Shown: positions 292 to 13,984 of the stretch, one piece after another
Layout: every line of letters starts with the position of its first letter
Position numbering within the stretch: position 1 is the first letter of the stretch
IMG/VR virus record: IMGVR_UViG_3300047443_000001
Coordinates: 1 to 20,295 of that record
DNA: 20,295 bases
Strand: one strand, 5' to 3'
Source: a virus
Position numbers and translations under genes: made by a program
The notes under the pieces: generated by a model
The model's database searches: none
Told to the model about the DNA's origin: nothing
The model's input: the letters and a program-made list of their open reading frames with translations, nothing else

Positions 292-3200
292 ATGGCCTAC
301 GAAGCAGCCCACCTTGGCTACCAAGGGAACCTTGGTTTCTGGGGTAACGACGCGTCCGGAACTCCCAAGAACAACTGGTGGAACCAGGACATGTCCGACT
401 CGGGCCAGGCCCTCTACTCTGATCCGCAGACTGGCATCGAGACTGGCACCATGCCTGACGAGCTGCTGGCTCAGTATGACGCAGCCAAGGGCGAAGCCCG
501 CAAGGCTCGCGGAGGTTTCCTTCAGCAGCTGACGGGCGGTATCAAGGATATCGCTGGCGCTGTCGGCGGTGGCGTGGACAGCGTCCTGGAGAACGTGATC
601 GGCAAGACTGCCACCAACCTGGTCGAGGGCGCCGCCAAGGACACGGCTCAGGCCGTCTGGTGGCCCGTGGACAAGCTGGCGACTGGTGCGTACTGGCTGT
701 ACTCCAACGCCATCTCTCAGCCTCTCAGCACGGCGCTCCTGACGAGCGCCGATGCAGAGCTGTCCGGCAATTACAGCAAGCTGAACCCGTTCTCGGACGA
801 GTCGACCTGGGGCAAGAACTACGACCAGGCCGAGCACATCTCCCCTGCCCAGGCGTTCATGAACTACGAGAACACGGCCGAGGCTTCCGGTCAGGGCACT
901 GCCCTGTCTGGCGTTCTGGGCGGTGGTGCCGACAAGACGAGCGCAGCGGAGAAGGAAGCGATCAAGCGCAACACCAATCGCTTCATGTACGACACGGACT
1001 ACTGGCGACGGAAGCAGGGCTGGACCTACACGGTCGGCACTGGCGCCATGGACTTTGCCCTGTCGATGGGCGCTGACCCCTCCTACGCCGCCGTCAAGGG
1101 CGTCTCGTCTGGAGTCAAGGCCGCTCGCTCCACCGCGCTGATCACTCCGGCCACTGCTGCTGCAGCTGCTGCCGAGAAGTCTCAGCGTGGACTAGGCGGT
1201 GTTGGTCAGGCTGTCGGTATCGCCGTTGGCAACCAGTTCGCGAGGACGCCTGAAGAGGCGTCTCGTGGAAAGAAGATCAACGAGTTCTTCGACTGGGCTG
1301 ACGGCAAGACCGCTGCCGAGATCTCTAAGCACCCCATCTGGGGCAAGGGCCGCCGGATCAATCCCGAGGCCAACAAGCTGTCCGAACACCTGGCGAACAC
1401 CAGCCGTGAAGACATGCCGCTCTTCCTCCGCTTCGCCGGTGGCGATAACAGCGCTGCTGCAATCATGGCCCAGAAGGGTCAGGACAACCTGATCCGGATC
1501 GGCAAGCTTCAGGAGAACCGAGCGCTGGTCGACTCGACCAAGTTGGACCTGGACGCCGCTCAGCATTACCTCGCTGGTGAAGCTGCCACGACTCGTGGCA
1601 CTAGCGCCCTGCCCTCCGGGCTTCACGGCCTGTCTACGGCTGGACCTACGGGCCAGGCAGACATCCTGCGAGCCAACGAGTGGAAGAGCGCTCAGCTCGA
1701 TCTCATCAACAAGCAGATCGCGGCTCTCCAGACGAAGGGCGACTACTACTCCAGCATCCTCGGGAACATCGGCAAGGGCGTCGACGACTTCTCTCCCACC
1801 GAGAACAACGTCTTCGGCACGGTCAGCAACCTGTACCGGCAGGGCCCTTTGGCCCTGCGCTCATCGGAAGCCACGGCCGAGAAGAACATCGCCAAGATGA
1901 CCGGAGCCCGTGGGGCGAAGGTCGCCACTGAGTCTCAGCTCGCCAAGGGTGGTCGCTTCGAGGGGCGTCTCCAGACGGATTCAGGCTTCGTTGCCCGCAC
2001 GATCCGGAACGGTTTCTACTCCCCGAATATCAAGCTGGTCAACTCCTTCGGTGACCGACTGCCTTCGACGTTCATCGATCACAATGCCGACGACGCGTTC
2101 GACCGCCTGTCGGACATGCTTCGCCGTGTCCCTAAGTTGGACCCTGAAGTCCGGCTGGGGATGATCAACAGCTATACGAACGCAGGTGATAAGGTCTCCC
2201 GCTCCAAGGAGCTGGACAAGATCCACACTGCAGTCATTCAGCACATGGCGGGTCAGCACAATCTGGACCTTGAGACTGCTCGGATCATCGACGGGGTCAC
2301 CAAGAACGGGATCAGCTCGACTATCGCCAAGCTGACCAACCAGGCCCCGAATGATCAGATCTTCTCTGCCGCCAAGGTAGGTGAAGGCGAGTCCGCCGTC
2401 CGTGCTGACATGGTCGATGACCATGGCTCATGGATCATCTCTCCCCGGGCGAAGACGCAGCTGTCCGTAGGTCAGCCGCTCCTGGACGTCAAGATGCTGG
2501 ACCGACTCCTGAAGCGGAACTCCGGCTACTTGGGTAGCATCCGCACGGCCGGTGGCAAGGTCACCGATCCCGCCACCGCTATCGGCGACTTGCTCAACAG
2601 CCTCTGGAAGGCCAGTACGCTGCTGCGTCCTGGTTACACACTGCGGTCCATGTCGGACGAGCAGGCTGCCAGTGCGGTGAAGTTCGGCATCATGTCGACG
2701 ATCATCGGCGCTGGTAAGGGTGGTGCGAACTGGGCTCTCAACAGGACTCAGCAGCTTGCTGCTCAAGCTGGTGCAGCTAGCTACGTCAGCGCCACCGGTA
2801 CTGGTCGAGGCACCATCAAGATCCTGGATGAGGCAGCCCGTGAGGCTGCCGTCAAGAACCCAGAGCTGAAGATCTCCAGGGTCAAGGTTCACAAGGCCTG
2901 GCCTGTGGTTGAGGGGCGTCTCACGCAAGAGCGTGAAGGCATAGCGGAGATGGAAGCCCTGATCAAGAGAGAGAAGGCGCACAAGACTCCCGATCAGTCC
3001 ATCATCGACGACGCCAACGCCCGGATCGTGGATCATCAGAACACGATCGGCGAGTTCAGCGACTACGCCCACGCTCTCCTTCGGGAGGCTACCGACGCCA
3101 CCGGGCGTCGGCTGGGCGAAGGAACCATCGAACACCGGGGTGTGACTATCCCCGAGGCGTTCAGTAGGGAGTGGGAACATCCGATCCCCCGGGATCAGGT

Positions 3201-5517
3201 GACCTCTTCTCACGCCATGGAGACGATCTTCGCTCGCTCCGAATCGGTCGAGATGAACCGCCTGATCAAGACGGGTTCCTGGACGACCATCGCTCCTGAT
3301 GCCACGAATCCCGTAGCTCAGAAGCTACACATGGAGTCCTGGCTGAACGGCCTGAACAAGCAGTATCGACAGGATCCCCTGTTCCAGCGGGTGGCGAATG
3401 ACCCGACGCTCAAGGAGGCGAAGGCTTGGCTGGCTTCTTCTGATGGCAAGTACCATCGCAGCATTCTTGGCCCCGCCGGTCGAGATGCTGAGGAGCTGCT
3501 GAACGCAGTCAAATCCACCTTGGATCATTACCTTCCGCCCGCGACTGGCCTTCAGGCCAAGATGGCGAAGGGTGAAGAGATTCTGGCTTCCGACCTCAAG
3601 GCCGCCATCCATCCCGAAGCGTTCCCCGTCGTCCACGGCGAGGAGTTCACTTCTCTCACCCGCCATGGCCAGATCCAGTCCGGCTATCATGCCATCGACA
3701 AGCTGATCGAGACCGGCTTCCGAAAGCTGGGCAGTGTGCCTAACGACGTCATGGCACGCCAGCCGATCTACCTGCGCGCCCAAGAGGCGCGCATGAGGCA
3801 GCTCATGGATCAGGAACTGTCGTACCGCAAGGCAGCGGGCAAGGACGACAAGCTCGACCCGAACACCATGAACAACCTGCTTCAGAAGTCTGACCGCCTG
3901 GCCCGCAAGGACATCTCCCAGGTGGTCTACGACCCGACCAGGACTACGGCCACCGAGGCTCTTCGCTTCGTGGCTCCGTTCATGGCTGCTCACGTCGACG
4001 GCCTGTCCCGCTGGGCAGGCCTGCTGGCAGAGAAGCCTCAGATGGCTACGGTTGCAGCGAAGATCTACAACGCTCCGGTCGCGGCCAACATGGTGACCGA
4101 CCAGAGTGGCAACGTCGTAGGCGAAGACGGCTACGCCGACGTCATTGACCCGACCACCGGCAAGGTGGTCGACCACAAGTTCGTTCCCATCGAGGACCGG
4201 ACGCTGCATCTTCGGATGCCGACTGACACCAAGAATGCCAAGAAGATGGGTGGAGCAGGCGTAGCCATCCCGGTATCTTCGATCAATACCCTGTTGCCCG
4301 GCGACCCTTGGTTCAACCCGGGTGGTGGGCCTCTGGTCCAGATCATCGGAACCGAAGTGGCTAAGCAGGTTCCGGCCGTCGGTGATTTCCTTCAGTGGGC
4401 AAAGATCATGCCTTACGGTCCGAGCAAGGGAATCATCGATGCCATGACGCCGAAGTACATGAAGTCGGCGTGGGATGCCTACACGGCTGGCGATGTCGGA
4501 AACGACAAGTACCAGCAGGCCTACCTTGCCGAGTATCAGCGGCAGATGGCCGACTACCACAACGGCGGCGAAGCACCCGACATGAAGAAGGTCGCCAGCA
4601 ACGCCAAGAAGTTCATGTACCTCGACGCCCTGACGTCGTGGGCCATGCCGGTCTCGGTGAAGACGACGCCCCTTACGGGGACGCCGTATCAGTTCTTCTT
4701 GGACCAGTACAAGGCGATGCAGCAGGTTGACCCGAAGAACGCCAAGACGAACTTCTTCAACAAGTATGGAGAAGGATACTTCGCGTTCACAGCCGACCTC
4801 TCCAAGAGTATCGGCGTCCAGGCGACTCTGTCCGCACAGAACACGGCTGAACAGTTCGGTGACCTGATTGCTCAGGACCCCGACCTTGCACCCTTGATCG
4901 TGGGAGACACCTACAACCAGGGGAAGTTCTCCAGCTCGGTCTATCGAAAGCAGATGGACCAGTACTTGGGTGGCACGAGGATGCGCGAGAAGATCTCGGC
5001 ACTCGATGCTATCAAGGAGAACCAGAAGGATCTGGGCTGGCAGCAGTACAGCGCTATGTCGAACATGCTGGACGGGGAGATGATCCGCTCCGGGTTCCAC
5101 TCGTACAACCAGGCGGGCGCTGAACCGCTGGCCAACCTGAAGTCTCAGATGGTTCAGATGGTGGCTGACGGCAATGACGCCTGGTACGAGGACTACGGCA
5201 CCACGTCCACGACGAAGCTCCCGCTTCGCATCAAGGCGATGGAGAAGCTGGTCCAGAACAAGGCCATCATGTCCGACCCGTTCCGCAACGATGCCAAGGG
5301 CATTGCCGCCTACCTGTCGCAGCGCAAGATACTGCAACAGCAGCTTCAGTCCCGAGGTGCTAAGAGCCTGAGCTTCGGACTGGACGGCACACCCTACGGG
5401 CAGAACGCCGACATCGGCATGCAGCTGAGAACACTTCAGCTGTACTTGGTGAACTCCAATCTGGAGTTTGCCGACGTGTTCCATCGATACCTGGAAAGCG
5501 ATGATCTGGGGATGTAA
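292..5517 (+). CDS. Giant virion protein (1741 aa), putative internal/ejection protein
   Basis: The start is ATG 292, preceded by AGGAGG at 282-287, 12 bp after the previous stop. At 1741 aa it fills a quarter of the window. No catalytic motif was recognised. Visible landmarks are Gly/Ala-rich, mildly hydrophobic stretches around residues 78-150 and 245-310 that could touch membrane, LLRPGYTLRSM near 777, a charged helical region near 880-920, RFVAPFMAAH near 1223 followed by a Trp-containing helix, and PGDPWFNPGGGPLV near 1335. From memory, motifs like LLRPGY and R-F-x-x-P-F-x-x-A recur in very large virion proteins of actinophages. The position ahead of scaffold and capsid, next to two wall-hydrolase fusions, suggests an internal protein ejected with the DNA. 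A tape-measure role is less likely because no tail tube or chaperone genes surround it. Function is inferred from context only. Confidence 0.8.
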   Translation: MAYEAAHLGYQGNLGFWGNDASGTPKNNWWNQDMSDSGQALYSDPQTGIETGTMPDELLAQYDAAKGEARKARGGFLQQLTGGIKDIAGAVGGGVDSVLENVIGKTATNLVEGAAKDTAQAVWWPVDKLATGAYWLYSNAISQPLSTALLTSADAELSGNYSKLNPFSDESTWGKNYDQAEHISPAQAFMNYENTAEASGQGTALSGVLGGGADKTSAAEKEAIKRNTNRFMYDTDYWRRKQGWTYTVGTGAMDFALSMGADPSYAAVKGVSSGVKAARSTALITPATAAAAAAEKSQRGLGGVGQAVGIAVGNQFARTPEEASRGKKINEFFDWADGKTAAEISKHPIWGKGRRINPEANKLSEHLANTSREDMPLFLRFAGGDNSAAAIMAQKGQDNLIRIGKLQENRALVDSTKLDLDAAQHYLAGEAATTRGTSALPSGLHGLSTAGPTGQADILRANEWKSAQLDLINKQIAALQTKGDYYSSILGNIGKGVDDFSPTENNVFGTVSNLYRQGPLALRSSEATAEKNIAKMTGARGAKVATESQLAKGGRFEGRLQTDSGFVARTIRNGFYSPNIKLVNSFGDRLPSTFIDHNADDAFDRLSDMLRRVPKLDPEVRLGMINSYTNAGDKVSRSKELDKIHTAVIQHMAGQHNLDLETARIIDGVTKNGISSTIAKLTNQAPNDQIFSAAKVGEGESAVRADMVDDHGSWIISPRAKTQLSVGQPLLDVKMLDRLLKRNSGYLGSIRTAGGKVTDPATAIGDLLNSLWKASTLLRPGYTLRSMSDEQAASAVKFGIMSTIIGAGKGGANWALNRTQQLAAQAGAASYVSATGTGRGTIKILDEAAREAAVKNPELKISRVKVHKAWPVVEGRLTQEREGIAEMEALIKREKAHKTPDQSIIDDANARIVDHQNTIGEFSDYAHALLREATDATGRRLGEGTIEHRGVTIPEAFSREWEHPIPRDQVTSSHAMETIFARSESVEMNRLIKTGSWTTIAPDATNPVAQKLHMESWLNGLNKQYRQDPLFQRVANDPTLKEAKAWLASSDGKYHRSILGPAGRDAEELLNAVKSTLDHYLPPATGLQAKMAKGEEILASDLKAAIHPEAFPVVHGEEFTSLTRHGQIQSGYHAIDKLIETGFRKLGSVPNDVMARQPIYLRAQEARMRQLMDQELSYRKAAGKDDKLDPNTMNNLLQKSDRLARKDISQVVYDPTRTTATEALRFVAPFMAAHVDGLSRWAGLLAEKPQMATVAAKIYNAPVAANMVTDQSGNVVGEDGYADVIDPTTGKVVDHKFVPIEDRTLHLRMPTDTKNAKKMGGAGVAIPVSSINTLLPGDPWFNPGGGPLVQIIGTEVAKQVPAVGDFLQWAKIMPYGPSKGIIDAMTPKYMKSAWDAYTAGDVGNDKYQQAYLAEYQRQMADYHNGGEAPDMKKVASNAKKFMYLDALTSWAMPVSVKTTPLTGTPYQFFLDQYKAMQQVDPKNAKTNFFNKYGEGYFAFTADLSKSIGVQATLSAQNTAEQFGDLIAQDPDLAPLIVGDTYNQGKFSSSVYRKQMDQYLGGTRMREKISALDAIKENQKDLGWQQYSAMSNMLDGEMIRSGFHSYNQAGAEPLANLKSQMVQMVADGNDAWYEDYGTTSTTKLPLRIKAMEKLVQNKAIMSDPFRNDAKGIAAYLSQRKILQQQLQSRGAKSLSFGLDGTPYGQNADIGMQLRTLQLYLVNSNLEFADVFHRYLESDDLGM

Positions 5518-5526
5518 GGAGGAGAG

Positions 5527-6513
5527 ATGGTTCTAGCTCAAGACAGCAGCGGCGGTGTTGGCGGTGGCGCCACAGGAACGAGTGGCTCGTCTACCGACAA
5601 GCTCGCCCAGTTCCAGCAGAGCCTTGGTTCAGCTTCCGCTGCGACCAACAGTTCCAACTTCTTCGCCAGTAGCCAGTACAACCAGTACAGCGTGTACATG
5701 GGTGGAACGATCGGCGGACAGAAGACCAAGGGAAGCATTCTTGGAACTACTCAGGGAGGGGCTTTGGGCCCCTCCCTCGGGGTCCAGAAGGGCGACCTGA
5801 GCAACTACAACAAGATGTCCTACGGCGATGCGATCATGGCCCCAGTCAATAGCTGGACCAGCGATCAGGTCAGGGAGTTCGTGAACAAAGGGATTGTCAA
5901 CAAGATCCCCGGCTTCGAGGTCGGCATGGGCATGCCTCAGATTCAGGCCGCCTGGCAGTCTCAGGTCGAGGCGTCGATTCTGTTCAACCAGGGCCTCAAG
6001 GAAGGCCAGAAGCCCTGGACACCCTACGACGTCATGGACACTTGGTCGAACAACAAGGGCAAGTACGGCACGCAGCGCCAAGGTGACTGGATCTTCGACG
6101 TGGCTACCGGGGAGCGGATCAAGTACGTCGGTCCGACCTCGAAGACCACCACATCGAAGCATGTCGATCTCTCTTCCGCCGCAGACGTCAAGGCTCTCGC
6201 AACGCAGGCCTTGAGGGAGTTGCTGGGGAGGGCGCCTACCGCCAAGGAGATGGCCCAGTTCCGGGCGAGTATCACCTCCGAAGAGAAGGCCAACCCCACG
6301 GTCACGACGACCACGCAGCAGCTGTCTCCGGACCTGGCTACCGGTTCGCTGGACGTCACCGACGAGTCGAGCACTACCACCGGTGGCGTGTCAGACGCCG
6401 CACGAGCGGCGCTGATCCAGGCTCCGACCGAGCAGACCAAGGAGTACGGCAAGTACCAGTCCGGCACTACGTACTGGGACGCCATGATGCAGATGATTGC
6501 GGGTAGCGGATGA
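5527..6513 (+). CDS. Putative virion protein (328 aa) with LLGR-x-P-T-x-x-E region
   Basis: The start is ATG 5527 after AAGGAGGAGAG, 9 bp past the giant gene's stop. The N-terminus (1-65) is Gly/Ser/Gln-rich and probably disordered. Residues about 95-170 look helical (SWTSDQVREFVNKG, WTPYDVMDTW). Near residue 226 comes ALRELLGRAPTAKEM, then a Thr-rich stretch (TVTTTTQQ) and a C-terminal YWDAMMQMI. I recall the LLGR-x-P-T-x-x-E pattern from actinophage virion proteins but cannot name a family with certainty. The gene overlaps the NlpC/P60 gene by ATGA, so the two are probably co-translated and act in the same structure. A 9-bp perfect inverted repeat lies inside the gene at 5754-5776. No enzyme activity is predicted. 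Confidence 0.75.
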   Translation: MVLAQDSSGGVGGGATGTSGSSTDKLAQFQQSLGSASAATNSSNFFASSQYNQYSVYMGGTIGGQKTKGSILGTTQGGALGPSLGVQKGDLSNYNKMSYGDAIMAPVNSWTSDQVREFVNKGIVNKIPGFEVGMGMPQIQAAWQSQVEASILFNQGLKEGQKPWTPYDVMDTWSNNKGKYGTQRQGDWIFDVATGERIKYVGPTSKTTTSKHVDLSSAADVKALATQALRELLGRAPTAKEMAQFRASITSEEKANPTVTTTTQQLSPDLATGSLDVTDESSTTTGGVSDAARAALIQAPTEQTKEYGKYQSGTTYWDAMMQMIAGSG

Positions 6514-7808
6514 CGACGCAAGGTACGGACATCGGCGACTACGCCTCGCAGTACATTGGAACCCCGTACGTCTGGGGAGGCAACAGCCTCACCTCCGGCG
6601 TGGACTGCTCCGGATTGGTGCAGCAGGTCTACAAGCACTACGGCATCAACCTTCCCCGGACGACTTACGACATGATCGGGGAAGGGAAGCCTGTCGGCAT
6701 GAAGGGTCTCCGTCCTGGAGACCTGATGTTCTTCGACACCAGCTCGAAGTCTGGCCCTGACCACGTAGGCATCTACTTGGGCAACGGCAAGATGATCCAC
6801 GCACCGAGGCCTGGCAAGGCGGTTGAGATCGTCGACATCACCAAGGGCTACTACCTCGACACGTTCATGGGAGGACGCCGCATCAGCGGCGTCCATTCAG
6901 TCGGAGCGTCCGAGGCTGACTATGAGCAGAACCCGAAGCTCACACCCGAGGAGCTGGCAGCCAACTACGGCTGGTCATACGGCTTCCTCAACTCGAACTC
7001 CGAGCTGAAGGGCCTGTTCGACAAGGCTGTCAGCGGCACATGGACTGCCCAGAAGTTCCAGGCGGAGCTGAGAGACACGAAGTGGTGGAAGACCACCTCC
7101 GACACCAGGCGTGAAGCTCAGGTCACCAAGAACACAGACCCTGCCACATGGAATGCCCAGATGAGCGCGACCATCATTCAGGTGAAGCAGCTGGCTGCCG
7201 AGATCGGTGCAGCCATCCCGGAGTCCAAGCTCAAGAAGATCGCGCAGAGCGTGATCGAAACCGGCATGGACGAGGGCCAGCTTCGGTATGCGATCGGTGG
7301 CTACGTGGACTTCACGAAGAAGGGCACGCTTCGCGGCGAGGCCGCTATGCATGAGTACACCATGAAGCAGTACGCGTACAACATGGGCATCAAGCTCAAT
7401 GACCAGACGATCAAGAACCAGGCCCAGGCCGTGGTCAAGAAGATCGCCACTACCCAGGACTACGAGGACCAAGTCAGGGAGCAGGCGAAGTCCATGTTCC
7501 CCGCCTACGGGGAAGCCATCGACGCTGGCTCTACGGTCCGCGACATCGCGGCTCCGTACATGAGCCTCATGTCCAACGAGCTTCAGATCCCGGACAACAG
7601 CATCGACGTCATGGACCCCACGATCAAGAAGGCCCTGAACGGACTGGACGCCAATGGGAAGCCTGGAGGGGTTTCCCTGACGGACTTCGAGCAGCAGGTC
7701 CGGAACGACCCACGCTGGAAGAAGACTTCCAACGCACAGAACAACGTCATGAACGTCGGCATGCGAGTGCTGTCCGACATGGGGTTGGTCAGTGGCTCTT
7801 CTAGCTAA
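6510..7808 (+). CDS. NlpC/P60 peptidoglycan endopeptidase fused to a virion module
   Basis: Residues 1-130 form an NlpC/P60 cysteine peptidase domain: PYVWGG (19-24), VDCSGLVQQVY with the nucleophile Cys33, LRPGDLMFF (68-75), GPDHVGIYLG with His85, and MIHAPR with His97 as third catalytic residue. The family cleaves peptide bonds in peptidoglycan stems or cross-links. Residues about 148-430 are a separate helical module nearly co-extensive with the C-terminus of the next gene (ELRDTKWWK, YAYNMG, IDAGSTVRDIAAPYMS, RNDPRWKKT). No signal peptide or SH3-type wall-binding repeat is seen, and the gene sits among structural genes, so a virion-associated hydrolase acting during entry is more likely than a lysis endolysin. 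ATG 6510 overlaps the upstream TGA. Confidence 0.88.
   Translation: MTTQGTDIGDYASQYIGTPYVWGGNSLTSGVDCSGLVQQVYKHYGINLPRTTYDMIGEGKPVGMKGLRPGDLMFFDTSSKSGPDHVGIYLGNGKMIHAPRPGKAVEIVDITKGYYLDTFMGGRRISGVHSVGASEADYEQNPKLTPEELAANYGWSYGFLNSNSELKGLFDKAVSGTWTAQKFQAELRDTKWWKTTSDTRREAQVTKNTDPATWNAQMSATIIQVKQLAAEIGAAIPESKLKKIAQSVIETGMDEGQLRYAIGGYVDFTKKGTLRGEAAMHEYTMKQYAYNMGIKLNDQTIKNQAQAVVKKIATTQDYEDQVREQAKSMFPAYGEAIDAGSTVRDIAAPYMSLMSNELQIPDNSIDVMDPTIKKALNGLDANGKPGGVSLTDFEQQVRNDPRWKKTSNAQNNVMNVGMRVLSDMGLVSGSSS
7053..7094 (+). repeat. 42-bp near-identical repeat, copy 1
   Basis: Fourteen codons encoding KFQAELRDTKWWKT in the NlpC/P60 gene. Compared with 8398-8439, 41 of 42 bases match; the only difference is ACG versus ACA. 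Both copies use the AGA codon for Arg. Confidence 0.9.
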
Positions 7809-7811
7809 AGC

Positions 7812-7836
7812 GGTCGCGAGCCTTATGCTCGCGACC
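7812..7836 (+). terminator. Hairpin between the two wall-hydrolase genes (candidate attenuator)
   Basis: A perfect 9-bp stem, GGTCGCGAG / CTCGCGACC, with a 7-nt loop begins 3 bp after the NlpC/P60 gene's TAA and ends 13 bp before the next ribosome binding site. Only TTGACCC follows, so there is no U tract. It may be a weak terminator, an attenuator or an RNA-stability element. Its position also argues that this stretch is not coding. Confidence 0.45.
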
Positions 7837-7848
7837 TTGACCCTGTTC

Positions 7849-7856
7849 GGAGGAGG
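7849..7856 (+). promoter_or_regulatory. Ribosome binding site that fixes the transglycosylase start
   Basis: GGAGGAGG lies 4 nt before GTG 7861. The frame also opens at GTG 7792, but that start would lie inside the previous gene without a comparable site and would be translated through the 7812-7836 hairpin. GTG 7861 is therefore the preferred start. Confidence 0.75.
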
Positions 7857-7860
7857 AAGA

Positions 7861-9147
7861 GTGACAACCAGCTTCGATGCCCTGATGTACGGGATCGGCA
7901 TACAGGAAACTGGAGGCAACGGTTATCACACCGTCAACTCCATCGGCGCGGTCGGCAAGTACCAAGTCATGAAGGCCAACATCCCGAGCTGGTCCAAGAA
8001 GGTGCTTGGCTACTCGATCTCCTGGCAGAAGTTCCGCGACTCGCCCAACCTGCAAGAGCAGATCGTCCGAGGAATCCTCAAAGGATACTACAACAAGTAC
8101 GGCGCCAAGGGTGCCGCCTCGATGTGGTACTCGGGCCAGCCGAACTACAACAAGACCTACGGCAACCCTCCGGTCTACAAATATGTCAACAGCGTCATAA
8201 GTCACTCGACCAAGTACACGGGCGGCAGCGCCTCCTCCTCTTCTTCGTCCGCCACCTACAGCGGGACAGGAAGTGATGATCCGTTGTCCAGCAATGAACT
8301 GGCGGAGTCCTACGGCTTCGTCGATACGCTGATGGACTCGAACCCCGAGCTGAAGAAGCTGTTCTCTAAGGCCGTGAAGGGTCAGTGGACTGCCGACAAG
8401 TTCCAGGCGGAGCTGAGAGACACAAAGTGGTGGAAGACCCACTCAGAGTCCGAGCGCAAGTACCTGACGAACAGGTACGGCGACCCGGCCACAGCCAAAC
8501 AGGATCTCAATCAGTCCTACGTCCACGTGCGGCAGCTTGCCGCACAGATGGGCATGGTCGAGACCCCGGCCAACATGAAGAAGCTCAACCTGTGGGCGTA
8601 CAACATGACAGCCAAGGGCTGGGATGACGCGCAGCTGAGGAACGAGATCGGTAAGTACGTCTTCTTCGGAGACAAGATCCAGGGCGAGGGCAAGGACGTG
8701 CAGGACAAGCTCCACTCCTACGCGTACAACATGGGAGTGACGATGTCTGGCCAGTGGTACGCCGACAACACCCGCAAGGTGCTTCGAGGCCTGGCCACTG
8801 AAGGCGACTACGAAGACGAGATCCGCAAACAGGCCAAGGCCATGTACTCCGGATGGTCCAAGCAGATCGATGCCGGGCAGACGGTTGCCGACCTGGCTTC
8901 TCCGTACCTGTCCTCGATGTCCCAGATCCTTGAGCTGCCTTCGGGCAGCGTCAGCCTCCAGGACAGCACGATCAAGAAGGCCCTTCAGTACAAGGACAAG
9001 ACGACCGGCAAGAATGTAGCTAAGCCACTCTGGCAGTTCGAGAACGACCTTCGCAACGATCCGCGCTGGAAGAAGACCAAGAACGCACAGGACAGTTTGA
9101 TGCAGGTGGCCCATCAGGTGCTCGCCGACTTCGGCCTTAAGACGTAG
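7861..9147 (+). CDS. Lytic transglycosylase/lysozyme-like domain fused to the shared virion module
   Basis: From GTG 7861 the protein is 428 aa. Residues 1-115 resemble a transglycosylase or Rpf/lysozyme-type domain: GIGIQETGG with candidate catalytic Glu15, SIGAVGKYQVMK (28-38) matching the G-x-x-G-x-Y-Q-x-M core, and AASMWYSGQPNYN (85-97). Such domains cut the glycan strand of peptidoglycan. A Ser-rich linker (about 121-140) leads to residues 146-427, homologous to the NlpC/P60 gene's C-terminus (FQAELRDTKWWK, YAYNMG, IDAGQTVADLASPYLS, RNDPRWKKT). No signal peptide is present with this start. Together the two genes give one glycan-cleaving and one peptide-cleaving enzyme on a common scaffold, probably virion-borne. 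The exact glycosidase family is not certain from eye alignment. Confidence 0.85.
   Translation: MTTSFDALMYGIGIQETGGNGYHTVNSIGAVGKYQVMKANIPSWSKKVLGYSISWQKFRDSPNLQEQIVRGILKGYYNKYGAKGAASMWYSGQPNYNKTYGNPPVYKYVNSVISHSTKYTGGSASSSSSSATYSGTGSDDPLSSNELAESYGFVDTLMDSNPELKKLFSKAVKGQWTADKFQAELRDTKWWKTHSESERKYLTNRYGDPATAKQDLNQSYVHVRQLAAQMGMVETPANMKKLNLWAYNMTAKGWDDAQLRNEIGKYVFFGDKIQGEGKDVQDKLHSYAYNMGVTMSGQWYADNTRKVLRGLATEGDYEDEIRKQAKAMYSGWSKQIDAGQTVADLASPYLSSMSQILELPSGSVSLQDSTIKKALQYKDKTTGKNVAKPLWQFENDLRNDPRWKKTKNAQDSLMQVAHQVLADFGLKT
8398..8439 (+). repeat. 42-bp near-identical repeat, copy 2
   Basis: Second copy, in the transglycosylase-like gene, in the same position of the shared module as the copy at 7053-7094. 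A shorter identical stretch, TACGCGTACAACATGGG, occurs at 7371-7387 and 8719-8735. Confidence 0.9.
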
Positions 9148-9155
9148 GGGAGACG

Positions 9156-10307
9156 ATGACGACACCGATCAACACCGCAAGGACTCAGGCTTCAGCCGCC
9201 GCTACTGCGGCGGGCACGGCCGCATCGACTGACCCTAACGCCCAGCTGAAGAAGTATGACGCCCAGATCAAGCACACTCAGGCTGTCATCAAGAACCTGA
9301 ACGCCCAGATCAAAGCGCTGAAGAAGCCGACCAGCAAGAGCGCCAAGGTGCAGGCCGACTACCAGCGGCACCTGAAGTCGCTGAACGCACAGCTTACTCA
9401 GCAGACGGCCGGTCTCTCTTCTCTCTCCGCTCAGCGTACTGCCACGCAAAACAAGATCTACGAGTCCGGCGGTCAGTACGAGAAGCTGCTGACCGGAACA
9501 GACCGCGATGCCTATATGGCCATCAATGCGCTGTTCAAGACCTACGGTCTCGACACACTGGCCCCGAAGATCTACGACTACGTGAAGAACGGCTACTCGG
9601 CAGACACGATCTCCATCCTCCTCCAGGACACGAAGGAGTACAAGGAGCGGTTCTCTGGCAACCAGGCTCGCATCAAGGCTGGCCTGCCTGTCCTCTCCGC
9701 TTCGGAGTACCTGGCCACCGAGTCCAGCTACAAGCAGATCATGCAGTCGGCTGGGTTGCCCATCGGCTTCTATGACCAGGCTTCAGACTTCACGGACTGG
9801 ATCGGGAAGAACGTCAGCCCGACAGAGATTCAGTCTCGCGTGGACCTCGCCTCACAGGCGACGGTCCTGGCCAACCCGAACTACCGCAAGGCCCTGAATC
9901 AGATGGGCATCTCGGACAACGACATGACGGCCTACTTCCTGGACCCGAACAAGGCGTTGCCTTACCTCCAGAAGTCTGCCGCCACCGCCGCTATCGGCGG
10001 CGAGGCGCTGGCCCAAGGCCTCACGTTCGACAAGGCCTACTCGGAGCAGCTGGCCCTTCAGGGCATCTCGCAGTCCGAGGCGCAGCAGGGTTACTCGCAG
10101 ATCGGCACGGAGCTGGATACATACAAGGCTCTTGGCCAGATCTACGGGGAAGAGTGGAATCAGCGGACGTCAGAGCAGGCTCTCTTCGAGGGCCAGTCGA
10201 CCGCCCTCCAGAAGAAGAGCAAGCTCGCATCGCAGGAACGTGGCGCCTTCAGCGGTGCCACTGGGGCTAGCCGTGGCGGCCTCAGCTCCGGCGGTGGAGC
10301 AAGGTAG
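9156..10307 (+). CDS. Coiled-coil virion protein (383 aa), putative internal protein
   Basis: The start is ATG 9156, 8 bp after the previous stop, with a GGGGAGA site. Residues 1-25 are Ala/Thr-rich. About 27-105 are rich in Gln, Lys and Leu with heptad-like spacing (LKKYDAQIKHTQAVIKNL), a likely coiled coil. The central region has YGLDTLAPKIYDYVKNG and GYSADTISILLQDTKEYK (147-164), which resembles the ELRDTKWWK region of the two preceding hydrolases, then GLPIGFYDQASDF, VSPTEI and AYFLDPNKALPYLQ. I recall the FYD, SPTE and YFLDP motifs from actinophage virion proteins without enzymatic annotation. The C-terminus (about 355-383) is Gly/Ser/Arg-rich and probably disordered. As the last gene before the structured gap it closes the internal-protein block. 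Confidence 0.78.
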   Translation: MTTPINTARTQASAAATAAGTAASTDPNAQLKKYDAQIKHTQAVIKNLNAQIKALKKPTSKSAKVQADYQRHLKSLNAQLTQQTAGLSSLSAQRTATQNKIYESGGQYEKLLTGTDRDAYMAINALFKTYGLDTLAPKIYDYVKNGYSADTISILLQDTKEYKERFSGNQARIKAGLPVLSASEYLATESSYKQIMQSAGLPIGFYDQASDFTDWIGKNVSPTEIQSRVDLASQATVLANPNYRKALNQMGISDNDMTAYFLDPNKALPYLQKSAATAAIGGEALAQGLTFDKAYSEQLALQGISQSEAQQGYSQIGTELDTYKALGQIYGEEWNQRTSEQALFEGQSTALQKKSKLASQERGAFSGATGASRGGLSSGGGAR

Positions 10308-10345
10308 AAGGTGTAGGGCCGGTTCGACTCCGGCCCCTACCACCA
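10300..10345 (+). other. tRNA-3'-half-like sequence (T-arm, acceptor 3' strand and CCA)
   Basis: Bases 10318-10334 form a perfect tRNA T-arm (stem GCCGG/CCGGC, loop TTCGACT). They are followed by 7 nt (CCCTACC), A and an encoded CCA at 10343-10345. Upstream CAAGGTAGAAGGTG resembles the anticodon-3'-strand plus variable region of an actinobacterial tRNA. No matching 5' acceptor strand (GGTAGGG) or anticodon stem is present, so this is not a complete tRNA gene. It may be a tRNA remnant, an attachment-site-like match, or simply a hairpin: GTAGGGCCGG pairs with CCGGCCCCTAC with one bulged C. The first bases overlap the end of the preceding gene. Confidence 0.4.
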
Positions 10346-10486
10346 TGACGGGATCGACCGGCCCCTAGTCATGTAATCAAGTCCGGGAACACGGACGGCA
10401 GAAGCCGTCCGCTTAATCGAACGAGCTGGACCAGGCCTCCCCAGGCCTGACTCCATGGCGTTCACACCTAATTGGGAGGAGTCATC
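10308..10486 (+). other. Structured intergenic gap between internal-protein and capsid blocks
   Basis: This 179-bp stretch has no plausible gene. It holds the tRNA-like hairpin (10314-10340), a perfect 8-bp hairpin (10392-10411), a 7-bp hairpin with CCCC loop (CAGGCCT/AGGCCTG, 10432-10449), a direct repeat CCGGCCCCTA (10330-10339 and 10358-10367) and the scaffold gene's ribosome binding site (GGGAGGA, 10474-10480). I see no convincing -35/-10 promoter, though a promoter for the capsid genes would be expected here. Confidence 0.7.
10392..10416 (+). terminator. Candidate intrinsic terminator upstream of the scaffold gene
   Basis: A perfect 8-bp stem CGGACGGC / GCCGTCCG with an AGAA tetraloop is followed by CTTAAT. 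The stem is strong but the U tract is poor, so it could be a partial terminator or an RNA processing or stability element separating two late transcription blocks. Confidence 0.5.
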
Positions 10487-12409: not shown

Positions 12410-12746
12410 GTTCGCCTGGAACCCCCTCATGGAGAGGTACAGGATGGATAGGGCTATCTCGGTCGTAGAGGTTAGCCCTGGCGTGTACGAAGAAGTCAGA
12501 TATGACGCGTACACCAACGAACTTGGTGCGGTTAACTATCCAGTCAACCCCAACCAGGACACAGACTTCTGGCCCGCCGCCAGAGCGGGCCTTCACTACT
12601 TCCGTGGCGGATATGAATGGACAGTGACTGACCAAGTGAGGTCCGACCTGATCTCTTCCGGCGTGGCGGATGCATCAAACTTTACTCTCGCTCCAGCCCC
12701 AGGGTTTGGCGAAGGCGGATTCGGAGAAGGAGGATTCGGAGCATGA
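12366..12746 (+). CDS. Unknown virion-region protein (126 aa) with GFGEG tail repeat
   Basis: The proposed start is GTG 12366 after GAAAGG at 12353-12358; ATG 12429 and ATG 12444 are in-frame alternatives. The body contains AISVVEVSPGVYEEVRYD, DFWPAARAGLHYFRGGYEWTV and a helical VRSDLISSGV. The C-terminus is a short repeat, GFGEGGFGEGGFGA, likely flexible. I do not recognise the family. The gene overlaps the SGNH esterase gene by ATGA, so the products may be made in fixed ratio and act together, for example as a base or connector for the esterase-bearing appendage. That role is inferred from position only. The inverted repeat at its start suggests translational control. Confidence 0.7.
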   Translation: MSTWLFTTRTVAEAPFAWNPLMERYRMDRAISVVEVSPGVYEEVRYDAYTNELGAVNYPVNPNQDTDFWPAARAGLHYFRGGYEWTVTDQVRSDLISSGVADASNFTLAPAPGFGEGGFGEGGFGA

Positions 12747-13984
12747 CCTACACACCCATTGCGCCAGGGACTCAGGATTGGGATGTGCCGCTGAACGCAG
12801 CACTCACCGACCAGGACTCCAGAATAACCACGCTGGAAGGCCAGGGCTCTGCTGCGTTCGGCACTTACGTGCCTCCGTCGTGGGGTCAGTTCTGGCGGCC
12901 GAAAAGGAATGCCGCTCCCACTACGGCAGCCAAGGTGGCGGTCGTCGGCGACTCCATCTCGGAAGGGTTCTTCGCGACCGACACCTACACCGATAGCTGG
13001 GTGGGCCGCATGCGCTCAAGCCTTCAAGGCTTGTACGGCAATGGCGGGTCTGGAATGTTCTCCACCGGGCGTACGGACGAGGCTTCCAGCGTGAGCGCTG
13101 GAATCACCAGCACCTGGCAGGGGAACGGCTCTTACGCCACCACCACCGGAACGTGGGTGCAGTCCGGGCTGTTCTTCGGTCCGGGGATCACGCTGCTCCA
13201 GGCCACCGCTGCTGCCACCATCACCTTCACCAGGGTGCGGGGGTCGAGCATCAACATCTACAACGTAAGCGGCGCCGCCCCGAGGGCGAACTTCACTTAC
13301 TCTATCGATGGAGGGGCGCCTGTTCTGGTGACCGTCAACATCGGATCTACGGCCATTCAGGTCACGAATGTCACCGGCTTGTCCGACTCGAACCACACCG
13401 TGGTGCTCACCTGGAACGGCGCCGCTTCCGACCCTCTGTTCATCGTCGGGGTGGAGGGGCTTAACTCCACCGGAATCACGGTCAACAATCTCGCGAAGTC
13501 CGGGTCCAGAACCTCCCAGTGGGTGAGCAACACGACCTTCGGCCCGCCGTACAACGGTGGCACCGCGTATCCCGCAGATCTGGTGATCTACTCCCTCGGC
13601 GTCAACGACGCCAACAACAGCGTGACCGGAGACGGCTGGCTGGACAATGTCACTGTGCACCTACAGGCCATCAAGGCCGCGAATAACGGAGCCACTGACA
13701 TCATCCTGCTGCATCAGCATATTGGCACCTTCGGCTCCGTTCCTGCCACAACCGCCAACCTGTTCGGCGAGTACTCCGCGAGAATCAGGGGCCTGGCCCA
13801 GAACTACAACGCGGCGCTAGTCAACATGTGGACTGTCGGCAGGAACTCTTGGAACTACAACAACAGTATCGGTTACTGGGGGGACCCCAACACCGTTGGT
13901 ATCCCGGGAACGGACACCGTTCACTTGTCGGACTTTGGCCATCAGGCCATCTCTGACATCATCACGCCTATCGTCATGTCCTAG
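12743..13984 (+). CDS. SGNH/GDSL hydrolase with fibre-type N-terminus (virion esterase/deacetylase)
   Basis: ATG 12743 overlaps the previous TGA. Residues 1-50 (PIAPGTQDWDVPLNAAL, ITTLEGQ, then PSWGQFW) look like the virion-anchoring start of actinophage fibres. From about 64 an SGNH hydrolase follows: VAVVGDSISEGF with nucleophile Ser71 (block I), LGVNDANN with Asn288 (block III, G-x-N-D) and DTVHLSDFGH near the C-terminus with Asp391 and His394 (block V). A beta-rich region of roughly 100-250 between blocks I and III looks like an inserted carbohydrate-binding or jelly-roll domain. SGNH enzymes remove acetyl or acyl groups from glycans. In a virion this suggests deacetylation of a surface polymer during adsorption. 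Substrate unknown. The protein has no signal peptide. At 413 aa it is longer than a single SGNH domain. Confidence 0.88.
   Translation: MTYTPIAPGTQDWDVPLNAALTDQDSRITTLEGQGSAAFGTYVPPSWGQFWRPKRNAAPTTAAKVAVVGDSISEGFFATDTYTDSWVGRMRSSLQGLYGNGGSGMFSTGRTDEASSVSAGITSTWQGNGSYATTTGTWVQSGLFFGPGITLLQATAAATITFTRVRGSSINIYNVSGAAPRANFTYSIDGGAPVLVTVNIGSTAIQVTNVTGLSDSNHTVVLTWNGAASDPLFIVGVEGLNSTGITVNNLAKSGSRTSQWVSNTTFGPPYNGGTAYPADLVIYSLGVNDANNSVTGDGWLDNVTVHLQAIKAANNGATDIILLHQHIGTFGSVPATTANLFGEYSARIRGLAQNYNAALVNMWTVGRNSWNYNNSIGYWGDPNTVGIPGTDTVHLSDFGHQAISDIITPIVMS

Follow-up and report, generated by a model that had tools for sequence, protein, structure and literature searches.

The window analysed here, a stretch of 20,295 bases from a virus record (IMGVR_UViG_3300047443_000001) and a fragment of a larger phage genome, carries two adjacent genes, A and B, which encode predicted wall hydrolases with different catalytic heads on a shared C-terminal module. 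Both open reading frames (ORFs) lie where a first-pass annotation had placed them. We argue that their products are probably paralogues belonging to the virion of a short-tailed phage of actinobacteria, entry enzymes carried on a shared docking module. The argument is built from sequence: the common ancestry of the module, one old duplication, replacement or loss of the B head, the catalytic residues, the gene block in which the pair sits, and covariation between the two copies. The features of the pair are as follows.

6510..7808, + strand: gene A, NlpC/P60 endopeptidase head and helical module, 432 amino acids (ORF, Pfam, predicted model, homologue names)
6510..6905, + strand: A head, predicted NlpC/P60 (C40) domain with Cys33, His85 and His97 (PF00877 and residue conservation)
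6939..7787, + strand: A copy of the shared module, residues 144-426 (BLASTP and tree)
6999..7097, + strand: A patch 1, module residues 24-56, containing WTAQKFQAELRDTKWWK (same-genome covariation with B; gene-conversion segment in some genomes)
7434..7481, + strand: A patch 2, module residues 169-184 (helical-face covariation with B)
7861..9147, + strand: gene B, predicted lytic transglycosylase head and helical module, 428 amino acids, GTG start at 7861 (start site, homologues, predicted model)
7861..8229, + strand: B head, GH23/SLT-like lytic transglycosylase fold with Glu16 (fold comparison and invariant Glu16)
8281..9135, + strand: B copy of the shared module, residues 141-425 (BLASTP and tree)
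8344..8442, + strand: B patch 1, counterpart of A patch 1 (DNA match, covariation)
8782..8829, + strand: B patch 2, counterpart of A patch 2 (covariation)

Unrelated heads on one helical module

The mechanical ORF of B opens at 7792, and its likely start is the GTG at 7861, which follows a strong ribosome-binding site, GAGGAGGAAGA; the resulting product of 428 residues lines up with its relatives. The head of A matches NlpC/P60 (PF00877) over residues 17-124 (E 5e-30; 104 bits, cut-off 23). Cys33 and His85 are invariant in 61/61 relatives, and the third residue, at position 97, is H, E, D or N. This head is a predicted NlpC/P60 (C40) peptidase, which by its family would be expected to cleave peptidoglycan. 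The head of the window B protein gives no Pfam SLT match; its orthologue in the related phage FlowerPower does match SLT (PF01464, E 4e-5; 23.8 bits, cut-off 21.3). A model of B residues 2-124 (VIA-align) resembles Cj0843 (Z 13.1) and P. aeruginosa Slt (Z 12.8), and against solved lytic transglycosylases 117 residues align at Z 13.1 with a root-mean-square deviation of 2.7. Glu16 is invariant in all 58 relatives (58/58).

Behind these heads, residues 144-426 of A and 141-425 of B align by BLASTP with 129/287 positions identical (45%) and 64% positive (242 bits, E 3e-80), and in a BLASTP comparison of the two proteins the heads give no significant alignment. The first-pass annotation had described about 280 common C-terminal residues behind unrelated heads, with shared motifs in the same order; the alignment bears out this description over 287 residues, and the quoted motifs stand in register. 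The similarity is also visible in the DNA, where 121 nucleotides match at 79% (6991-7111 with 8336-8456). AlphaFold models (mean predicted local distance difference test score 82 for A and 89 for B) have an identical helix order in the two C-termini, and the homology stands in this structural comparison as well. In the same models a disordered linker follows each head (A 133-142, B 123-139), and the modest predicted template modelling scores (0.41 and 0.58, respectively) leave the relative placing of the parts uncertain. With Foldseek, the A model matches the predicted FlowerPower B protein (E 1.9e-21, 307 columns) as well as unnamed proteins of uncultured phages, one of them of 271 amino acids.

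Duplication of the module and changes of the B head

The window phage, a soil phage, is closest to the Beephvirinae, Streptomyces podoviruses that include Kumquat, Zeigle, FlowerPower, Immanuel3, Manuel and Abafar (identity to isolates 57-60% for A and 52-58% for B). Of these, Abafar has been described as a podovirus whose tail measures 16 nm (PMC11536984). Both proteins match phrog_6654 (PHROGs v4, function not assigned) over nearly their full length (E 1e-146 for A and 3e-122 for B), and the Beephvirinae counterparts, gp11 and gp12, are named 'peptidase' and 'glycosylase' in RefSeq and minor tail protein in GenBank. The pair is found in the same order in 29/29 isolate records and in 74/74 distinct contigs with both modules complete, drawn from IMG/VR and isolates, a sample in which contigs may hold assembly errors. 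In all 74, B follows the NlpC/P60 gene, or what is left of that gene where the end of a contig truncates it. When the module was sought outside this phage group by tblastn against 50,697 phage records, the only matches were the 29 Streptomyces records and ct2KA10. A genome scan for prophages found the pair in only two Streptomyces assemblies, in a 7.9 Mb scaffold of Streptomyces sp. MP131-18 (L161:4115-6849) and in a 45 kb contig of S. himalayensis (L162:4282-6876), and some relatives may thus be prophages.

In an unrooted tree of 106 modules, the A modules and the B modules form two separate clades (support 100/99), a split present in every bootstrap tree. The most divergent group (L059, L061, L062, L065) carries both copies, which places the duplication before that group arose. 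A distant relative is instructive here: the ct2KA10 group (OX376640, IMG/VR L151-L160; ct2KA10 and about nine IMG/VR loci) encodes a single module protein, which covers all but the first third of the module (hhalign probability 99.4%) and in which no recognisable enzyme head was detected. In this group the portal gene is followed by those for a giant protein (~1,800 residues), the module protein, a gp13 homologue, the scaffold and the capsid. The group resembles the window phage group in gene order and in the C-terminal two thirds of the module, but has one module copy with no enzyme head detected where the window has two with heads. Together, the tree and this single-module relative support the proposal, made in the first-pass annotation, that the A and B modules stem from one old duplication. 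Since the outgroup is headless, the first heads may have been additions to a naked module rather than the product of exchange between two enzymes.

Later changes are seen in B. Most B heads are of the SLT type, and nine rows of the B-module tree carry SLT_3 (PF18896, E 5e-23). These rows are scattered, giving 8 head-state changes (replacement by SLT_3 or loss), at least five of which are demanded by well-supported branches; in a smaller tree set, SLT_3 arises in 4 separate places in all bootstrap trees. For example, the modules of L057 and L036 are 93.8% identical over 291 residues and their heads are without real similarity, and the L057 head is 66-73% identical to heads whose modules are only 54-57% identical. 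In two further contigs (L018, L107) the B gene is the module alone, beginning at the end of A, and neither contig has, elsewhere, anything that matches SLT_3 or the SLT head of the window. The module is kept there without an enzyme, and the absence of a B head from two related phages suggests that the glycan cutter is not always needed. Exchange of the B head is thus supported, by trees and alignments, as real and recurrent. The earlier proposal that duplication was followed by head exchange is supported for B; in A, no exchange was seen.

Two other irregularities were noted at the pair. In L016/L017 a small ORF resembling HNH/His-Me endonucleases lies antisense between A and B (L016:3863-4267, minus strand), and the adjacent reading frame of the B head is apparently broken (L016:4300-4450); a homing nuclease near the site of head swapping would fit exchange at the head/module boundary. 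In Streptomyces phage JXY1 (L071:4683-5986), gene A is present as two ORFs, one for the NlpC/P60 head alone and one for the module alone, which may be a sequencing error or real.

Covariation of the two modules within genomes

Independent evolution of the copies after the duplication would leave A no more similar to the B of its own genome than to any other B. This is so for most of the module (A-B identity 0.33 within and 0.32 between genomes), but not for two patches. In patch 1 (module residues ~24-54 in this comparison), identity is 0.67 within a genome vs 0.58 between genomes, and the identity of A to its own B (0.63) exceeds that to the A of other genomes (0.56). In the region of patch 2 (module residues ~166-188), the corresponding values are 0.43 and 0.36. 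The patch 2 excess falls on positions 169, 172, 173, 176, 179, 180, 183 and 184 (0.49 vs 0.29), whereas the positions in between have none (0.44 vs 0.45), a pattern with helical periodicity (p 0.005). Because the same data had initially served to pick these face positions, a check in two separate clades was added: 169, 172, 173, 176 and 180 recur in both. Over the full set of columns, agreement between the two clades is only modest (Spearman 0.19, p 0.002), and we therefore trust only the recurrent patch 2 positions. The permutation p-values treat related genomes as independent, which is limited by the two-clade check and by the use of representative sets; the covariation persists among 42 representatives below 75% identity.

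Gene conversion between tandem copies could produce such similarity with no bearing on shared docking, and it has clearly been at work in patch 1. There, 20/24 codons are identical between A and B in L073 vs 13/45 elsewhere in the pair, and codon identity is far above that of the rest of the gene pair in L073 (p 1.6e-5), L097 (p 2.8e-4) and L103 (p 7e-4). L019 carries an odd motif, WLAEIS, in both A and B, encoded by nearly the same codons, and the sister L011 is without it. The codons of L073 and L019 weaken the idea that the covariation arose by selection alone. As the whole explanation, however, conversion seems unlikely: in the 26 genomes that remain when those with a hint of conversion are dropped, the amino-acid excess stays in both patches (patch 1, 0.65 vs 0.58; patch 2 face, 0.49 vs 0.30), other patch 2 positions are still without it (0.42 vs 0.43), and conversion cannot select one face of a helix.

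We infer that both copies contact one partner that varies between phages, which could be either a virion protein or a polymer of the host wall. Gram-positive lysins usually consist of a catalytic head and a C-terminal binding domain. By analogy, the module could be a cell-wall-binding domain that directs both enzymes to the same host polymer, in which case A/B covariation would track the host wall, and the covariation itself speaks only for a common partner of either kind. We nevertheless consider wall binding distinctly improbable. Profile searches gave no match of the module to known wall-binding families, a headless homologue occupies the same position in the structural gene block of ct2KA10, and the phages have a separate endolysin gene. 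Of the two kinds of partner, a virion protein is favoured over a wall polymer by the conservation of the gene block and by the homologues without heads.

The first-pass annotation had suggested that the two enzymes may sit at equivalent sites in the same particle, and the same-genome covariation lends this indirect support. It is tempting to go further and picture a tool holder, although we offer this tentatively, as something a little short of an even chance. On a single ring or core of the virion, A and B would take up sites that are equivalent and perhaps mixed, held by the same partner through patch 1 and the helix face of patch 2. B would be re-equipped with new heads, or none, by recombination near patch 1, which is conserved, and gene conversion together with selection would keep the docking surfaces matched.

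The gene block, a probable role at entry and known systems

The neighbours of the pair in the window bear on its location.

292..5517, + strand: gp9 homologue, protein of 1741 amino acids (same structural gene block)
5527..6513, + strand: gp10 homologue, upstream gene (suggestive link of its C-terminal region to the outgroup module protein)
9156..10307, + strand: gp13 homologue, downstream gene (adjoins the pair; conserved in relatives and outgroup)

The window pair is thus flanked by gp10 and gp13 homologues, peptidase then glycosylase, as in Immanuel3 and FlowerPower. The block runs portal, giant protein, A, B, gp13, scaffold, capsid, and in annotated relatives the A and B genes lie between the portal and capsid genes, apart from the genes for endolysin (gp2) and holin, which are separately annotated. 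This arrangement makes it very improbable that A and B are lysis enzymes, that is, endolysins. Both heads are indeed peptidoglycan hydrolases by family and fold, but A and B sit among virion genes, a separate endolysin and holin are annotated in relatives, and headless B modules are retained.

Where in the virion the proteins would sit is a separate matter. They could be external tail-tip lysins like gp13 of phi29 rather than internal ejection proteins, a location compatible with their being entry enzymes on a docking module and one that we hold to be quite possible, if somewhat less probable than its opposite. The gp13 protein of phi29, a podovirus of Gram-positive hosts, has lysozyme-like and endopeptidase domains at the tail knob (PMC9863714), T7-type ejection proteins are reported to be absent from phi29-like phages (PMC8954989), and depositors call A and B minor tail proteins. 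However, those names rest on annotation only, and the block from portal to capsid is more like an internal-core set.

A and B each consist of a catalytic head, a flexible linker and an all-helical module of ~285 residues. If they are entry proteins, the module would be the structural part and would dock, either in the core of the capsid or in the short tail, on a virion partner that the two have in common. The heads would be exchangeable tools on a flexible tether. At infection, A would cut peptide stems or cross-links (NlpC/P60) and B would cut glycan strands (GH23-type), and the two cuts together would open the thick wall for passage of DNA. The two-enzyme entry device for thick walls suggested in the first-pass annotation is therefore plausible; virion location, a shared partner, enzymatic activity and joint use at entry are all inferred.

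Several points weigh against this reading. For the relatives, neither virion proteomics nor an enzyme assay was found. Searches by sequence (best E 0.3, unrelated) and by fold listed no solved structure of the module, although the fold searches were dominated by the head. Recent gene conversion accounts for some of the likeness between A and B of one genome in patch 1, and a common host-wall ligand would yield the same covariation as a common virion partner.

The neighbouring genes were also considered as relatives of the module. In 9156-10307, KNGYSADTISILLQDTKEYK resembles WTAQKFQAELRDTKWWK by eye, but hidden Markov model and profile-profile comparisons are at noise (probability 1-9%), and a third module copy was rejected. 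Likewise, 5527-6513 and the 1741-residue protein gave no module similarity in profile comparison. The C-terminal region of the 5527-6513 product does resemble, weakly and in one comparison, the part just before the module in the outgroup single-module proteins (hhalign probability 68%, E 5e-5). The 1741-residue protein (292-5517) is without a Pfam family and has a counterpart of comparable size and position even in the ct2KA10 group, which makes it a candidate giant internal protein. Downstream of the capsid gene, 12743-13984 encodes a GDSL lipase/acylhydrolase-like protein (PF13472, E 9e-13), possibly a tail esterase, and 16376-17314 matches the SU10 adaptor protein family (PF24175; 27.6 bits, cut-off 27), consistent with a short-tailed phage. 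Between gp13 and the scaffold gene, Immanuel3 and FlowerPower carry ~20 transfer RNA (tRNA) genes, L107 has 22 and L018 ~16, L011 and L015 have one each, and the window (10308-10471) and the Streptomyces chromosome locus L161 have 0. The tRNA array has been gained or lost at this single fixed spot.

Virion lysins of podoviruses that attack actinobacteria have hardly been studied. Here nature has set up the experiment already, in a carrier that is duplicated, has undergone head swaps and exists in two headless forms: it shows which part is structural and which wall-cutting activities can be exchanged, and it predicts docking residues. More generally, covariation of paralogues within a genome is a cheap means of looking for binding surfaces that the members of other duplicated pairs of virion proteins have in common.

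Among known systems, the Beephvirinae gp11/gp12 proteins and phrog_6654 are of the same family as A and B, with the same gene pair and order, and differ at the level of identity given above. The two activities are already annotated in these relatives. A search for literature on the pair found none, and, as far as we found, neither papers nor annotations describe the common module and its history, the swapping of heads or the covariation; the annotations are also silent on paralogy. A second parallel is with the ejection proteins gp15 and gp16 of the podovirus T7 and their homologues, in which a long body bears a transglycosylase head at its N terminus. In the T7 relatives K1E and K1-5, this head can move from the homologue of gp16 to that of gp15 (PMC8954989). 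The T7-type proteins, however, act on Gram-negative hosts and have no peptidase partner, whereas here the two bodies are paralogues and different heads are swapped at one locus; for the A and B bodies, no match to gp15 or gp16 was listed in PDB sequence or fold searches, the latter dominated by the head. As predicted for A and B, phi29 gp13 brings glycan- and peptide-cutting together in a virion lysin of a podovirus with Gram-positive hosts (PMC9863714), but there a single chain at the tail knob holds the two domains, in contrast to two paralogous carriers. What is distinct here is that paralogous bodies lie side by side, that one of the two positions is repeatedly re-equipped, and that the bodies co-evolve.

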